Shown in pieces: positions 16,759 to 32,153 of a stretch of 64,000 bases of DNA (position 1 is its first letter; each line of letters begins with the position of its first letter). The notes below the pieces were generated by a model that was not told where the DNA came from, searched no databases, and saw nothing but the letters and a program-made list of their open reading frames with translations. Origin of the DNA: an uncultured Pseudomonadota bacterium (GTDB taxonomy: Bacteria; Pseudomonadota; Gammaproteobacteria; Methylococcales; Methylomonadaceae); contig CAISXF010000005.1 of assembly GCA_903889445.1 (NCBI GenBank), forward strand, positions 1-64,000, given 5' to 3'. Position numbers and translations under genes: made by a program.

Positions 16759-16858
16759 TTTTTGATGGCAGGTTCGAGGTAAAAGTAGCGCATATCATAA
16801 CGGTTTCAACGCATACAGGCTATAAACGCGGGACAGTCGAAAATAATAAGATTTTACG

Positions 16859-16893
16859 AAGCGTCCAAGTTTGCCGCTTTAATCCTTTACACC
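16859..16893 (+). promoter_or_regulatory. WYL/RtcB operator-promoter motif, copy C
   Basis: 25-base block (16859-16883) with the pattern AAGCGTCC, then TTTG, CGC, TT and AAT at the same positions as copies at 17954 and 20299. It is followed after four bases by the -10-like hexamer TACACC (16888-16893). Unlike the others it points into the 3' end of the WYL gene, so a transcript from it would be antisense to the regulator. Confidence 0.55.
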
Positions 16894-16894
16894 T

Positions 16895-17887
16895 TTAGCA
16901 ATACATTTTGCTTAATGCTTTGACTTCCAACGCAAAGGCTTGGCGTAATTCCAATGGTTCAAGCACTTCAATTCCCGTTCCGAAACTGCGAAGCCACCAA
17001 TTCAATTGTTTTGTATTCGTAACAATGGCTTCCAATAAATAGTGTTTCTCGTCAATATCACTAATTTTCTGCTTCGCGCAAAGCGGCGTTTCCAGCAACA
17101 TTTGTTTCAAAAAAACATTAACTTTTAGTTTTAGCGTAATTTCTTCCAAATGATTATCGACAGGATAACTAAAACTACCTTGGGCAATGTAATCGTTCAA
17201 CACAAAATCGGTTGGCACTAACACGATTCGGTCGCTTAATTCAGCGTCTTTAAAACGATGCAACGCTAATTGTTTAACGTCGGTGTAATCAAAAATCGTA
17301 GCAACCAAATAAATGCTATTGTGGCGAAACACTAAACCCAACGGATTGATTTCGTAAGTTTTTGGCGATTTGTTCACGGCTTGATAAGTCGCTTTGAAAC
17401 GCAGACTTTTGAGCAACGCTTCATAAACAACTGCCAAAACAGAAGGCTCAATTTCGGCTGGTAACAAAGGCAAATTATTCGGAACAACACCGACTTTCTC
17501 AATCCAATGCTCAAATTTCGATTCTTTCAAACGCTTGTCCGCCAAATCAAAATAACCCGTTAAACGTCCTCGAACCGAAGGTGGTAATAACGGTTCAAGA
17601 AACATTTCAGCCAATTTAAAGGTCAAAGCTTCATCCGTTGACATCATCGGCAATTGCATAGGGCTGGAATTATCAATCCAAAACCAACGCAATGGTTTGG
17701 TATTTTCAGTGTTTGCAATCGGAAATAACGGCGACGCTGAAAGTTTCACCAAGTCGCGTTGTACCGTTCGCAAATCGACGGCGTATCTCATATTTTGCAA
17801 CTTTTCTAAAATTTCGGGTGTTGAAATCGAATTCGGTGCTTTCGGAATCAAGCACAGCATATCGAAATAACGTAACAAGCTCTCCAT
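16895..17887 (-). CDS. WYL-domain transcriptional regulator
   Basis: 330-residue DNA-binding regulator. I start at ATG 17887 because AAAGGAAAACCG lies directly upstream; the longer frame begins with TTG. A winged-helix DNA-binding region (about residues 1-75, with STPEILEKLQNM and RTVQRDLVKL) is followed by a WYL domain (about 135-210: YQAVNKSPKTYEINPLGLVF, RHNSIYLVATIFDYTDVKQL) and a C-terminal WCX-like extension. WYL regulators often sense nucleic-acid or nucleotide ligands and control defence or DNA/RNA-stress genes. It diverges from the 176-aa gene and its likely sites are the three copies of the motif at 16859, 17954 and 20299. Confidence 0.9.
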   Translation of the reverse strand: MESLLRYFDMLCLIPKAPNSISTPEILEKLQNMRYAVDLRTVQRDLVKLSASPLFPIANTENTKPLRWFWIDNSSPMQLPMMSTDEALTFKLAEMFLEPLLPPSVRGRLTGYFDLADKRLKESKFEHWIEKVGVVPNNLPLLPAEIEPSVLAVVYEALLKSLRFKATYQAVNKSPKTYEINPLGLVFRHNSIYLVATIFDYTDVKQLALHRFKDAELSDRIVLVPTDFVLNDYIAQGSFSYPVDNHLEEITLKLKVNVFLKQMLLETPLCAKQKISDIDEKHYLLEAIVTNTKQLNWWLRSFGTGIEVLEPLELRQAFALEVKALSKMYC

Positions 17888-17953
17888 CGGTTTTCCTTTC
17901 AAGTCTATTTATATTTTCAAAAACTATAGCATCAATTGTTAAATTTTTTATAA

Positions 17954-17988
17954 AAACGTCCAATTTTGTCGCATTGATGTTTTACACT
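17954..17988 (+). promoter_or_regulatory. WYL/RtcB operator-promoter motif, copy A
   Basis: 25-base block (17954-17978) beginning AAACGTCC and containing TTTTGTCGC and ATTGAT, followed after four bases by TACACT (17983-17988), a possible -10 box. It sits 32 bases before the 176-aa gene, in the region shared with the divergent WYL regulator. No good -35 hexamer is present, which would fit an activator-dependent promoter. Confidence 0.65.
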
Positions 17989-18019
17989 GTCACCCAATTA
18001 ACTAAAACTAAAATCAATT

Positions 18020-18550
18020 ATGAAAAAACGTCGCTACATCAAACGCAAAAAAGTTTATCTCCGAACAAAATACCGTTTCAGAGAATCCAAAACGCATCCT
18101 GTGTTTAAACAGTTTTTGGCATGGTACGAATTGTATCAATCTGAATTCAACTATCCATTACGGCGTTTTACAGAAAATTCGATGTTGATTGATGGCGTGA
18201 ATGACAAAATTCGCGTTCGTTACGATGGTTGCGAATTAGTCGTTTGTGTTTGTTGGCAAGGTTGGTACGAAGAATTTTTTTATTACGGCGCATCGCCAGA
18301 ACCCACCGCACAAGGCTTTATAAATGAATTACTACTGCCTGAATGGCAAACCGTGTATTTTTCAGAAGCCGCGCTGTATGAATTTGATGTTTTTGAAAAA
18401 CTAAAAGAGTGGCTGAACGAAAAATTACCGTTAGCAAAATGGGTCGCGTTTTATAAAGTTAAGCATTTTTCGTTTGCAAAATTAGTGAGTGAGCGTGATC
18501 CTGAAGCTGCTGAACATTTGCCTGTATTTAAAATTGCAAATCTGTTGTAA
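18020..18550 (+). CDS. hypothetical protein next to WYL regulator
   Basis: 176-residue protein I do not recognise. It begins with a very basic stretch (MKKRRYIKRKKVYLRTKYRF), then an acidic/aromatic globular part rich in Trp and Tyr (CWQGWYEEFFYYGASPEP). No signal peptide or membrane helix is visible. The N-terminal Arg/Lys cluster could bind nucleic acid. It is the first gene behind motif copy A and is followed closely by the TPR and HNH genes, so it probably belongs to the WYL regulon. Confidence 0.65.
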   Translation: MKKRRYIKRKKVYLRTKYRFRESKTHPVFKQFLAWYELYQSEFNYPLRRFTENSMLIDGVNDKIRVRYDGCELVVCVCWQGWYEEFFYYGASPEPTAQGFINELLLPEWQTVYFSEAALYEFDVFEKLKEWLNEKLPLAKWVAFYKVKHFSFAKLVSERDPEAAEHLPVFKIANLL

Positions 18551-18591
18551 TGGCGCGTGTCTTTAAACTTTTAAAATTAGAGGAAAAATAG

Positions 18592-19305
18592 ATGTCTCAT
18601 ACATGGTTACTAGAGTTTTATCTTGATGACGAAGAAACCGACGTTGTTTCTGACTTGATTGATTCGGATGATTTTACAAATGCCATTTCAATTCTGGAGA
18701 AAAAAATTCATGAAATGGAAGCCGATGGCGTTTCTGAACCCGAAATCCTAGCTGATATTGCTTATTTGTATTATCTGAACGGTGACGGTGATAACGCTTC
18801 TGTATTTTATGAAAAAGCGATTGCCTCATTTGAGGAAAGTGAGTTTAGTGGCTCTGTTGGATTCGGTGGGCTTTTACAAGAATATGCGGTGTTGTTAAAG
18901 GCAAAAAATAAACATGAGTTAGCACTAAATTATTTTTTACGCACAGAAGAAATTTTTAATAACCATTGGGTTGAAGATAGTGACCCTGTTTGTTTTGCAG
19001 AGCTTCTGGGCGAAATTGCAGACACGCATCACAATTTAAAACAAGATGGTTTGGCAATAGAATTCTATGCCCGCGCTAAAAAAATTCTTGAGGATTCAGA
19101 AGAAGCGGAACAGTTTTTATATGCGGCAATTTTGAATAATTTAGGTGAAATTTTTCTTGATTTAAAACGGAGTGACGAAGCATTGCCACTTTTTACGACG
19201 GCTCTAACTTTGTTGGAAAATGCGTTTTCAGATGAAAATGGTGTTATTGACGTAATCAAAGGCAATTTGGTGAAACTGGATAGTCTTATTCAAAAACAAC
19301 ATTAA
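18592..19305 (+). CDS. TPR-repeat protein
   Basis: 237-residue acidic protein made of tetratricopeptide-like helical pairs. Examples are ILADIAYLYYLNGDGDNASV followed by FYEKAI, ELLGEIADTHHNLKQDGLAI followed by EFYARAKKIL, and ILNNLGEIFLDLKRSDEALP followed by LFTTALTLLE. It is likely cytosolic and a protein-binding scaffold. An AGAGGAAAAATAG ribosome site precedes the ATG. It lies 41 bases after the 176-aa gene and 18 bases before the HNH gene on the same strand. Its base composition is visibly more AT-rich than the housekeeping genes. Confidence 0.8.
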   Translation: MSHTWLLEFYLDDEETDVVSDLIDSDDFTNAISILEKKIHEMEADGVSEPEILADIAYLYYLNGDGDNASVFYEKAIASFEESEFSGSVGFGGLLQEYAVLLKAKNKHELALNYFLRTEEIFNNHWVEDSDPVCFAELLGEIADTHHNLKQDGLAIEFYARAKKILEDSEEAEQFLYAAILNNLGEIFLDLKRSDEALPLFTTALTLLENAFSDENGVIDVIKGNLVKLDSLIQKQH

Positions 19306-19323
19306 ATTTACGAGGAAAACAAA

Positions 19324-20250
19324 ATGCTAAAACTTGTTACGAAGGAATCTGAAATTGCTAAATGTCAAAAACGATTAGAGAAAACGTTAAAGGCTGCACT
19401 TTCCTTAAAAAAAGAAATTCGTATAGGTTATCCTTCAGGAAGTTGGATGAGTAAAGTTGGCTATAATTCTGACATTTGGTATGCGAACTTTTTTATAGAT
19501 GAAGAGAATAAGACCCGTCGTTTTTGGAATGGATTCGGGTTATCGAGCGAATCAGAATTCAATACGGGGCAAAACAATAACATTGCCGTAGAAATAAACA
19601 TTACAGAAAAAGGAATAAACAGAAGCATTCGAGGTGCTTTTGTAATAGATGACAGGACTAAAGAAGTAATACTAATTCACCGAGGTAGGGTGAATGGCTT
19701 TACGATAAAAGAATTTAAGGCTTGGTATCCAGAACAATTCATATCCATTCATGACGACAAAGGGAATCATGAAGAAAGAGTCCTTGTTATTGGTGCCATT
19801 GAATCTAGTGATTTCATTGAACGATTGACTGATTTTGTCAAAAATGTCGTCCGTTTTAAAAATGGATTAGAGCCTGTGAAACATCCTCCAAAAAAACCAA
19901 CTAAACCGCACAATGCCGAGATACACCGATTATTTCAAGAGCATGAAAATGTAGAACTCGAACGAATTGAACAAGTTGTGCTTGTTTATAAAAGAGACCC
20001 AAAGGTTGTAGCGGAGGCAAACGAGCTAGCAAAAGGTAAATGTCGATTGTGCAAATGCGATGCACCGTTTGAAAATGAAAATGGTGTGCCTTATTTAGAG
20101 GTTCATCATGTCAAATGGTTATCTCAAGGCGGTGCGGATTGTATTGAAAACGCTATTGCGCTTTGTCCGAATTGTCATCGAAAAATGCACAGTTTGAATT
20201 TAGCAGAGGATGTTGCTGCGCTTACAAAAATAGCCGAATCACAGTGGTGA
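19324..20250 (+). CDS. HNH endonuclease
   Basis: 308-residue protein with a C-terminal HNH nuclease domain (about residues 235-295). It shows a zinc pair CRLCKC, the catalytic LEVHHVKWLSQGG, then NAIALCPNCHRKMH with the second Cys pair. The first 200 residues form an unrecognised domain (EIRIGYPSGSWMSK, HRGRVNGFTIKEFKAWYPEQ) that may recognise the substrate. HNH proteins of this build occur in McrA-like restriction systems and in standalone defence genes. It is AT-rich compared with neighbours, has a GAGGAAAACAAA ribosome site, and is the last gene of the run behind motif copy A. Confidence 0.85.
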   Translation: MLKLVTKESEIAKCQKRLEKTLKAALSLKKEIRIGYPSGSWMSKVGYNSDIWYANFFIDEENKTRRFWNGFGLSSESEFNTGQNNNIAVEINITEKGINRSIRGAFVIDDRTKEVILIHRGRVNGFTIKEFKAWYPEQFISIHDDKGNHEERVLVIGAIESSDFIERLTDFVKNVVRFKNGLEPVKHPPKKPTKPHNAEIHRLFQEHENVELERIEQVVLVYKRDPKVVAEANELAKGKCRLCKCDAPFENENGVPYLEVHHVKWLSQGGADCIENAIALCPNCHRKMHSLNLAEDVAALTKIAESQW

Positions 20251-20298
20251 TATTTCGGTGTGAGAATTAACGACACATTTTTCTAAATTTATTTCACA

Positions 20299-20333
20299 AA
20301 ACGTCCCGTTATGTCGCGTTAATAAATTATGAT
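20299..20333 (+). promoter_or_regulatory. WYL/RtcB operator-promoter motif, copy B
   Basis: 25-base block (20299-20323) beginning AAACGTCC and containing TTATGTCGC and GTTAAT, followed after four bases by TATGAT (20328-20333), a good -10 hexamer. It lies 38 bases before the Sir2 remnant and so drives the Sir2-remnant/rtcB unit. It matches copy A at 19 of 25 positions. Confidence 0.65.
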
Positions 20334-20370
20334 TCACTCGCCCTAAAAAATAACGACGAGGAAATTCAAC

Positions 20371-20511
20371 ATGAACACATTTAACGCGCCAACCATTCCA
20401 ACCGCCTTAATCGAAAAAATCAAAACCGCTAAACATTTGGTTGTGCTAATGCACGGTAAAGCAGGTGATATTTTGCCAAAATTGTATGATGAAACTTTTT
20501 TAGGAGCCTAA
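20371..20511 (+). pseudogene. Sir2-family deacylase remnant with internal in-frame deletion
   Basis: A 46-residue ORF with a good ribosome site (GAGGAAATTCAAC). Residues 12-26 (ALIEKIKTAKHLVVL) look like the N-terminus of a Sir2 NAD-dependent deacylase, just before the missing GAGxS nucleotide-binding loop. Residues 28-38 (HGKAGDILPKL) look like the typical Sir2 C-terminus (GKAGEVLPxL). The intervening catalytic core of some 200 residues is gone without loss of frame. It cannot be an active sirtuin. Its last codons contain the TTAGGAG ribosome site of rtcB, so it may survive as a leader for coupled translation. Confidence 0.6.
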
Positions 20512-20514
20512 ACC

Positions 20515-21711
20515 ATGACGATTAAAACGGTGCTGACCGAAGGCAATGTGCCTGTCAAAATTTGGACTGATGAAATTGAAGACCGTGCAAAACAACAACT
20601 CAGTAACATTGCGAATTTGCCCTTTATTCACAAACACGTTGCCGCAATGCCTGATGTTCATACAGGAATTGGCGCGACGATTGGCAGTGTGATTGCTTGC
20701 CATAAAGCCATTATTCCTGCGGCAGTTGGCGTAGATATTGGCTGTGGGATGATTGCGTGCCGATTGTCTTTGACGGCGAATGACATTGACGAAAAATTGT
20801 TAAAAACGCTTTTTGACCAAATCAGCCGTGATATTCCTGTCGGACGCGACCAACACAAAGAAGACCGTGCGCTGGTTGAACGGGCGTTGCCGTTTGAAAC
20901 GCAACTGATGTTGATGACTGAAAAACATCCGCAATTGCTCAAAGCCTTTAAAAAATTTCCAACGTGGATTTGCCAAATGGGAACGCTCGGCAGCGGTAAT
21001 CATTTTATCGAGTTGTGTTTGGACGAACAGCAACGGCTTTGGATTATGCTGCATTCGGGCAGTCGTGGGATTGGCAACGCCATCGGCAATTATTTTATCG
21101 AGTTGGCGCGAAAAGATATGGAACAGTGGTTCATTCAATTGCCCGACCGTGATTTGGCGTATTTCCCCGAAGGTTGCGACCATTTCAACGATTACACGCA
21201 CGCCGTTGATTGGGCGCAACGTTACGCTTTTGAAAATCGCCAAGCGATGTTGGATTTAGTGTTGGCGGCATTGAAACGGCATCTGCCTCCGTTTGAAATC
21301 ACCACCGAAGCCGTGAATTGTCATCACAATTACGTCGCGCATGAACATCATTTTGATGCGAATGTTTGGGTGACGCGAAAAGGCGCAATTCGAGCGCGAG
21401 CAGGTGATTTGGGGATTATTCCTGGCAGCATGGGTGCGAAATCTTACATTGTGCGTGGCAAAGGAAATCCTGAAAGTTTTCATTCTTGCGCTCACGGGGC
21501 TGGTCGAAAAATGAGCCGCACCGCTGCTGAAAAAGAATTTACGATTGCTGATTTAATCGCACAAACCGAAGGTGTGATTTGTCGCAAAGACAAAGGCGTG
21601 CTGGATGAAATTCCGTCAGCATACAAAGATATTGATGTTGTGATGGCAAATCAAAGTGATTTGGTTGAAGTGGTGCATACGTTGAAGCAGATTTTGTGTG
21701 TGAAAGGTTAA
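20515..21711 (+). CDS. rtcB: RNA-splicing ligase RtcB
   Basis: Joins RNA 2',3'-cyclic phosphate or 3'-phosphate ends to 5'-OH ends using GTP and manganese. The 398-residue length matches the short bacterial form. Family landmarks are AAVGVDIGCGMIACRL with the metal-binding Cys, QMGTLGSGNHFIELC, HSGSRGIGN, HHNYVAHEHH and SCAHGAGRKMSR, in which His327 should be the guanylylated residue. In E. coli rtcBA is controlled by RtcR and sigma-54; here no RtcR or RtcA is present and the upstream motif shared with the WYL operon suggests different control. ATG 20515 lies three bases after the Sir2 remnant. Confidence 0.96.
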   Translation: MTIKTVLTEGNVPVKIWTDEIEDRAKQQLSNIANLPFIHKHVAAMPDVHTGIGATIGSVIACHKAIIPAAVGVDIGCGMIACRLSLTANDIDEKLLKTLFDQISRDIPVGRDQHKEDRALVERALPFETQLMLMTEKHPQLLKAFKKFPTWICQMGTLGSGNHFIELCLDEQQRLWIMLHSGSRGIGNAIGNYFIELARKDMEQWFIQLPDRDLAYFPEGCDHFNDYTHAVDWAQRYAFENRQAMLDLVLAALKRHLPPFEITTEAVNCHHNYVAHEHHFDANVWVTRKGAIRARAGDLGIIPGSMGAKSYIVRGKGNPESFHSCAHGAGRKMSRTAAEKEFTIADLIAQTEGVICRKDKGVLDEIPSAYKDIDVVMANQSDLVEVVHTLKQILCVKG

Positions 21712-21816
21712 ACATACAACGCGCTCAACACCTTCGTTTCCCGCGCAAACTTTTGGATGATTATTGGCAATGCTATACTTGCCGCTATTATTGATTCCAA
21801 TTTTTAGAGTGTTTAA

Positions 21817-31403: not shown

Positions 31404-32153
31404 TTAAACGTTTTCGCCACTGACGAAATCAGTTGAAGCGAACCATCTACCAAAGAAGTGCCACAAGAAGTAAATGATGATGCTTACGAAACCAGAAAAG
31501 AACGCTGATACTGGAGCAACGTCTTTACCGAAAGTTCTTAAAGTACCTTTTTCAACCATACGGATGTATTCAGGTGTACCAGTTCTAACATAGTTATAAC
31601 CTTGCAAGTCAGCTAAAGTCATCATCATGCCGTTGTACTCAACAGGAACATGTAATGGTGCAATAACTGGCCAGTTACCTGGATAAAACAATAAACCCCA
31701 CGCCAAACCGCCTACTACAGCAGTTACTGTCATGCTACCTGACAACATTAAGATAGCATCTAATACTACTGCGCCTGGCATCAAGTTTGATGGGAAGCAG
31801 AAGTTAACTGGGAAGTACGTCCAACCCCAGAAGTTCAAGTAACGGTTAACCCATTCACCCAACAACAAACCTAATACACAAACTACTGCGCCAAATGGCA
31901 AACGGTAGCGATACCACAAACATGCTTGAACAGCAGCAGGGAACGTAATTGACACGATTGGTGCAACAGTCACCCATAAACGTCTATCTTTCCAATCAGT
32001 CCAGAAATCCCAATCGCCACCAGTTAACATGTAGTGAATGTGATAACCGCCAAGTACAACGAAAAACAACGTAAACAAAATCATCCAGTCAAATGTGCGT
32101 GAAACTTTTACTGCTTCAGCACGTGACCGTACAGCTGATTGAGATGCGCTCAT
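31404..32153 (-). CDS. pmoA: particulate methane monooxygenase subunit A
   Basis: 249-residue integral membrane subunit of pMMO and the standard methanotroph marker. Conserved stretches include GDWDFWTDWKDRRLW, GLLLGEWVNRYLNFWGWTYF and YPGNWPVIAPLHVPVEYNGM followed by YNYVRTGTPEYIRMVEKGTL. These residues fit pmoA rather than the divergent pxmA. It follows pmoC after 112 bases and precedes pmoB by 33. The ribosome site is TTTAGGAGGTAAGCTA. Several positions (ITFPAAVQACLWYRYRLPFG) differ from Methylococcus, so the lineage within Methylococcales is left open. Confidence 0.98.
   Translation of the reverse strand: MSASQSAVRSRAEAVKVSRTFDWMILFTLFFVVLGGYHIHYMLTGGDWDFWTDWKDRRLWVTVAPIVSITFPAAVQACLWYRYRLPFGAVVCVLGLLLGEWVNRYLNFWGWTYFPVNFCFPSNLMPGAVVLDAILMLSGSMTVTAVVGGLAWGLLFYPGNWPVIAPLHVPVEYNGMMMTLADLQGYNYVRTGTPEYIRMVEKGTLRTFGKDVAPVSAFFSGFVSIIIYFLWHFFGRWFASTDFVSGENV

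Follow-up and report, generated by a model that had tools for sequence, protein, structure and literature searches.

Conserved operator-promoter-like sites around a DriD-like WYL regulator gene and rtcB in a gene island of a Methylomonadaceae bacterium

WYL regulators are common in defence islands, and few of their operators are known. DriD of Caulobacter is described as a homodimeric WYL activator that is switched on by single-stranded DNA (ssDNA) and contacts the beta subunit and the alpha-CTD of the polymerase, and DriD, PafBC and SiwR are reported as ssDNA binders. According to a preprint (PMC12340889), in which three DriD promoters are printed, the DriD site reads ATACGAC-N7-GTCGTAT, overlaps the -35 region, keeps a constant distance to the -10 element and is accompanied by poor -35 elements. 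The operator of BrxR consists of repeats of 10-11 bp with a 5-bp spacer and lies downstream of the predicted -10. CapW is a WYL repressor of an immune system. Makarova (2014) deals with the RNA ligase RtcB by way of the regulator RtcR. Here we analyzed 64,000 nucleotides (the window: positions 1 to 64,000, forward strand, of contig CAISXF010000005.1, GenBank assembly GCA_903889445.1) from an uncultured gammaproteobacterium of the Methylomonadaceae (order Methylococcales), in which three copies of one 25-base block lie around a WYL regulator gene and rtcB. The analysis indicates that these blocks are probably operator-promoters of the adjacent DriD-like WYL activator, which would switch on both arms of a small gene island. 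Genomes, loci and contigs are cited by our own G, L and C numbers.

A pattern search of the window matched AANCGTCCNNNTNTGNCGCNTTNAT without mismatch at positions 16859, 17954 and 20299 of the plus strand, with 17 of the 25 bases fixed in all three copies, exactly as an earlier note on this DNA had described them. At ≤3 mismatches, four matches were found in the window against 0.24 expected, and none of 100 shuffles reached four. In the complete set of contigs of this genome (G000; 121 contigs, 2.49 Mb, 95% complete), exact copies were limited to the three in the window, with the next best match carrying two mismatches, so that the copies are not scattered at random across the genome. At ≤3 mismatches the same genome yielded 12 matches (9 + 3), not above the 13 (5 + 8) of the backwards control, and therefore the exact copies alone stand out. 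The -10-like hexamers that the earlier note had placed behind the blocks were also seen, TACACC, TACACT and TATGAT in copies 1, 2 and 3, respectively, each at a spacing of exactly four bases. Copies 2 and 3 both read ACGTC-N7-GTCGC. As a refinement of the 25-base block, the unit that carries meaning is a dyad of half-sites 7 bases apart, together with a spaced -10. Copy 2 (17954..17988, plus strand), with its dyad CGTC-N7-GTCGC at 17957-17972 and the hexamer TACACT at 17983-17988, combines a DriD-type operator with a -10-like element and is placed as promoter of the run of genes for a 176-aa protein, a TPR protein and an HNH endonuclease. Copy 3 (20299..20333, plus strand; TATGAT at 20328-20333) is a like operator-promoter, assigned to the Sir2 remnant/rtcB unit as its promoter. 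Equivalent sites of both were located in G155, G193 and CAIVBX, and by sequence copies 2 and 3 look like functional promoters.

Relatives of the WYL gene were searched in 251 genomes of the order, 61 of which had a match, and 1.5 kb around each of 80 WYL genes (302,115 bases, six duplicate loci skipped, short or split matches mostly left out) was scanned with the full pattern CGWC-N6-TGTCGC-N-T-N8-TANNNT and, as control, with its reversed form. The scan returned 9, 22 and 29 matches at zero, one and two mismatches, against 0, 1 and 3 for the reversed pattern (60 versus 4). The 60 include identical sites and one L055 site counted for two WYL genes; with identical sites counted once, the numbers are 8, 22 and 26. 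Conservation in relatives was thus observed, with 46 of the 80 WYL genes having a site at ≤2 mismatches within 1.5 kb, compared with 4 of 80 in the control. When the -10 was not required, 86 non-identical core sites were obtained at ≤1 mismatch (control, 11), of which 39 carry TAnnnT at N8, with 11 at spacing 3 and an average of 2.3 at each of the remaining spacings. The half-site gap is equally restricted, with 32 exact sites at gap 7 and between 0 and 2 at each of the gaps 3-6 and 8-12. Most of the sites (41 of 46) fall mainly between genes, although our own open reading frame rule counts 86% of these loci as coding. The lack of a proper -35 box, as claimed earlier for the three copies, was borne out over 39 aligned sites from the relatives and the window, in which the best match to TTGACA at spacers of 16-18 averages 2.03 of 6, under the 2.47 of shuffled sequence. 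That the blocks are a dispersed repeat or a chance similarity with no regulatory role is hardly credible; the crowding of three copies into 3.5 kb and the weakness of copy 1 would suit it, but the window shuffles and the reversed-pattern controls exclude chance, the genes behind the sites differ, and a dispersed repeat was rejected because conservation is concentrated in the dyad, the -10 and their spacings. WYL autoregulation occurs in some relatives, judging by six sites (≤2 mismatches) that are directed into a WYL gene from no more than 300 bp upstream; none of the three window copies is placed in this way.

The association with rtcB was analyzed in 30 rtcB loci, each read within 1.5 kb, where "WYL near" means a WYL gene on the same contig within 10 kb; further rtcB matches, and also G193:C24, fall outside this count. 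A site within 1.5 kb of rtcB was found in 4 of the 6 loci with WYL near and in none of the 24 others (Fisher 0.0005), whilst the reversed control gave 0 and 4, respectively, and so the comparison of relatives places the site close to rtcB solely where a WYL gene is close. In G113 and G100, the other two loci with WYL near, the site stands 2.0-2.5 kb upstream of rtcB, ahead of a gene for an AAA ATPase that is a fragment in G100. RtcR (PF06956) was not found in any of eight genomes searched, the own genome, 95% complete, and seven relatives, with a positive E. coli control, and control of rtcB by RtcR and sigma-54 is therefore unlikely here. At the level of sequence, both results support the proposal that rtcB belongs to a WYL regulon and not to RtcR/sigma-54. 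No paper linking a WYL regulator to an rtcB promoter was found in the literature searched, which covers few of the subscription papers.

The WYL regulator itself (330 aa, 16895..17887, minus strand, with the ATG at 17887 set by eye) consists of a winged helix-turn-helix (wHTH), a helical linker, a WYL domain (PF13280) and a WCX domain (PF25583), and it fits the DriD-type domain build. A profile of 31 WYL sequences matched DriD at 6e-16, PafBC at 1.9e-9, BrxR at 0.018 and CapW at 0.28. In Foldseek searches with the AlphaFold2 model (mean predicted local distance difference test score, 87), the best matches were the DriD structures 8tpk/8tp8 at 1.4e-15 to 2.4e-15 over about 345 columns, and DriD is the nearest solved relative. 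Residues R41, T42 and R45, predicted to lie in the recognition helix, do not vary among the 31 aligned sequences and may contact operator guanines, as arginines of DriD do. The sites agree with this kinship: gap 7 dominates in the relatives, as in the DriD operator, and the layout is likewise that of DriD, with the operator over the -35, a constant -10 distance (unconfirmed outside the order) and a weak -35. Of the 17 bases fixed in the window pattern, the didA promoter carries 14 in a shared register, a match equalled in 1 of 5000 shuffles, with the dyad ACGTC-N7-GGCGC and the hexamer CAAGGT in the register of the window -10.

Several observations weigh against this interpretation. No site at ≤2 mismatches lies within 1.5 kb of 34 of the 80 WYL genes, and all nine members of a divergent WYL group that were looked at lack one. 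Sites found in related genomes are not independent of one another. The closest WYL loci also helped to shape the pattern, which makes other sets of loci a fairer trial. For 25 WYL genes elsewhere in the class, gap 7 again dominates (15 sites, other gaps 0-2), and 17 matches at ≤2 mismatches face one in the control; 12 of the 25 loci have a match, at exactly three mismatches motif and control are alike (19 versus 15), and TAnnnT stands at N8 in only 1 of 41 core sites, so that the -10 spacing is unconfirmed there. The strict pattern without mismatches was absent from 369 genomes of the class, and a looser scan, blind to WYL genes, across 398 genomes of the phylum matched the own genome and two others. 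In one of these, G784 (a distant genome of the class; L196 500-1501), the strict pattern adjoins a remote WYL gene of 22-25% identity, and the other match, L194, has no WYL gene within 1.5 kb. The class and phylum scans are too strict to gauge wider use of the pattern. Among the DriD promoters, CCNA_03891 is a weaker match (5 mismatches, equalled in 58 of 5000 shuffles), and bapE, with 7 mismatches in the didA register and 6 on the other strand, is at chance level (308 of 5000). An exact site in G248 (L190 7119-7150, minus strand) lies 2.3 kb beyond rtcB, in the gap that separates a Sir2/rtcB group from a recC-like gene 65% identical to recC of L149, and no WYL gene was found across the 8.5 kb read; this locus is counted among the 24 without WYL near. 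Both L194 and G248 would be expected if another regulator bound the sites and the WYL gene were a mere neighbour, which we nevertheless regard as very improbable, given that the sites co-occur with WYL genes of 27-100% identity at many loci, that 0 of 24 rtcB loci without WYL near carry one within 1.5 kb, that the exact copies of the own genome are confined to this locus, and that the sites match a known WYL operator.

The structural evidence is also less than uniform. The profile matches DriD over residues 147-326, the WYL-WCX part, with the DNA-binding domain outside the match, and the full-length Foldseek comparison gives a template modelling score of only 0.44-0.46 and a root mean square deviation of about 16 Å, meaning that the placement of the domains is different or uncertain. 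In VIA-align the DriD chains come first (Z of 13.6 and 12.6), with CapW, BrxR and PafBC within 2 Z and BrxR/CapW at 12.4 and 11.9, so the fold is nearly as close to the two repressors as to DriD. This nearness bears on a reading in which the sites are the same WYL operators, occupied by a repressor of the BrxR/CapW type that shuts out polymerase by sitting on the -35 region and is released by a ligand. BrxR is a repressor that acts at inverted repeats close to promoters, WYL repressors are cited for immune systems, and a 2022 survey assumes negative WYL regulators in systems with ADP-ribosylglycohydrolase, a gene that is present in related islands here. Even so, repression appears unlikely, although it is the most serious of the alternatives: the distance to the -10 is fixed, the -35 is worse than shuffled sequence and DriD activator promoters have the same layout. 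Both the sequence profile and the Foldseek E-value put DriD nearer than BrxR and CapW. The BrxR operator, moreover, consists of two 11-bp repeats set 5 bp apart, downstream of its predicted -10, whereas the sites here have short half-sites and a 7-base gap.

In the activator reading, which we prefer, a dimer of the WYL protein would recognise CGWC-N7-GTCGY on both sides of the -35 position and so replace the -35 box. Its ligand would most likely be ssDNA, as for DriD, PafBC and SiwR, produced by damage or by attacking phage, and the ligand-loaded dimer might recruit the housekeeping RNA polymerase to the -10 at the fixed distance. Copy 2 would then switch on the 176-aa/TPR/HNH genes and copy 3 the Sir2-remnant/rtcB unit, and a small exchangeable defence/repair island could in this way meet DNA damage or phage attack by ligating RNA and deploying a restriction-like nuclease.

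The regulator and its presumed targets occupy an island of about 4.9 kb (16831..21766) whose flanks are adjacent in four sister genomes. In G208, G181, G224 and G147 the left flank (homologous to about 16830) gives way within about 60 bases to the right flank (from about 21767-21801); G224 has a related WYL gene elsewhere in its genome, and the order-wide search found no WYL match in the other three. The flanks are 1.6 kb apart in G193, with other DNA between them, and this genome harbors a related island on another contig with piecewise homology only from 16893 to 21712, while G221 and G204 showed the left flank only, in the stretch read. The island has one WYL gene, and the own genome yields one WYL match at E ≤ 1e-10, a threshold that a remote second WYL protein could escape. 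Behind copy 2, all on the plus strand, lie the genes of the 176-aa protein (18020..18550), which has no match in Pfam, NCBIfam or PADLOC, the TPR protein of 237 aa (18592..19305) and the HNH endonuclease of 308 aa (19324..20250), whose best PADLOC match, a type IV (modification-directed) restriction enzyme, covers residues 209-296 towards the C-terminus. A 128-aa relative of the 176-aa protein stands in the equivalent place in G155. Behind copy 3, on the same strand, a Sir2 remnant of 46 aa (20371..20511), which compared with the full Sir2 of L045 retains both ends in frame and lacks the middle, is followed by rtcB, encoding an RNA ligase of 398 aa (20515..21711). In G155 and G193 (L049, L050) a comparable remnant is followed by a 68-aa frame, which we read as antitoxin-like, and a Fic/Doc gene (assigned by Pfam in G155 and by membership of the same cluster in G193), and then by rtcB. 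The Sir2 remnant and the differing genes before rtcB indicate that the promoter was kept while cargo was lost or exchanged. Elsewhere in the window a member of the methane/ammonia monooxygenase A family is encoded at 31422-32132, which agrees with a methanotroph.

Copy 1 (16859..16893, plus strand; TACACC at 16888-16893) adjoins the stop codon of the WYL gene and is directed into the 3' end of the regulator. It is the weakest of the three, with its hexamer TACACC and a TGCCGC core that deviates where T stands in 38 of the 39 aligned sites (chosen at ≤1 mismatch). It was seen in G000 and G155 only, outside the island core shared with G193, and its G155 counterpart has a 1-base insertion that widens the half-site gap to 8. 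Because it was seen only in these two genomes, in which it differs from the pattern in separate ways, copy 1 is probably a decaying relic at the island edge. The position and antisense orientation reported for it in the earlier note stand, but its role as a working antisense promoter into the WYL gene is less favoured than that of a relic. Further regulon members in the own genome were also considered: a 1-mismatch site at C96:50265 and a 2-mismatch site at C46:942 both lie inside open frames of more than 100 codons, and for this reason no further member is claimed.

Of 39 proteins encoded behind sites, 12 were searched for families, and Sir2, ADP-ribosylglycohydrolase, AAA ATPase, the 5'-deoxynucleotidase YfbR, a calcineurin-like phosphoesterase and recC were found among them. 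The AAA protein encoded behind the G113 site is similar to IetA, an anti-phage ATPase. In L051, L046 and L053, Sir2 is paired with a divergent ADP-ribosylglycohydrolase and an HD hydrolase (with rtcB also in L051 and L046), and one site per direction lies between the divergent genes. In three relatives (L149, L150 and L152) recC follows the same site near a WYL gene, which fits a DNA-damage signal and suggests that RecBCD may be under SOS-independent control in some of them; at L149 2-2323, as in L150 and L152, the DriD-type site is 24 bases upstream of recC. Whether DriD-like WYL activators well beyond Caulobacter use CGWC-N7-GTCGY-N8-(-10) as a portable promoter code, through which exchangeable defence and repair genes come under positive DNA-damage control, is in our judgement evenly balanced; the genes so controlled would include the rtcB RNA ligase, Sir2, ADP-ribosylglycohydrolase, AAA ATPases, the restriction HNH and recC. 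If true, a DNA signal, ssDNA, would trigger RNA repair, and damage signalling and RtcB would be joined, in a testable way, without RtcR. A readable operator-promoter code of this kind would make the targets, and probably the sign, of many WYL regulators predictable from sequence.

Compared with known systems, the RtcR-sigma54 control of rtcBA likewise sets a sensor regulator over rtcB, and differs in depending on RtcR, which was found in neither the own genome nor the seven relatives searched. BrxR and CapW, of BREX and CBASS, respectively, are also WYL regulators within defence islands and have a similar fold, with BrxR differing as a repressor with another repeat architecture. SiwR of Mycobacterium smegmatis is a homodimeric WYL activator of adjacent genes that binds an imperfect palindrome between -35 and -10, and it differs in its 19-bp palindrome, its conserved GGA at -26 and its targets. 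PafBC of mycobacteria is a WYL activator with a -26 element in place of -35 recognition, acting at RecA-independent promoters with sigma adaptation. Numbering the hexamer -12 to -7 would put the downstream half-site here at about -27 to -23. PafBC is, however, a heterodimer with a non-palindromic site and is more distant in sequence, and a PafBC-like -26 promoter was rejected, since its position fits but the dyad and the sequence match to DriD fit better. DriD of Caulobacter crescentus, with its didA, CCNA_03891/CCNA_01149 and bapE promoters, shares the wHTH-linker-WYL-WCX build and a CGAC-N7-GTCG operator over a poor -35 at constant distance to the -10, at about 18% identity to the WYL regulator of the window. 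Its targets are didA, bapE, recJ and dnaG, whereas the presumed targets here belong to a mobile island with rtcB, the HNH endonuclease and the Sir2 remnant.

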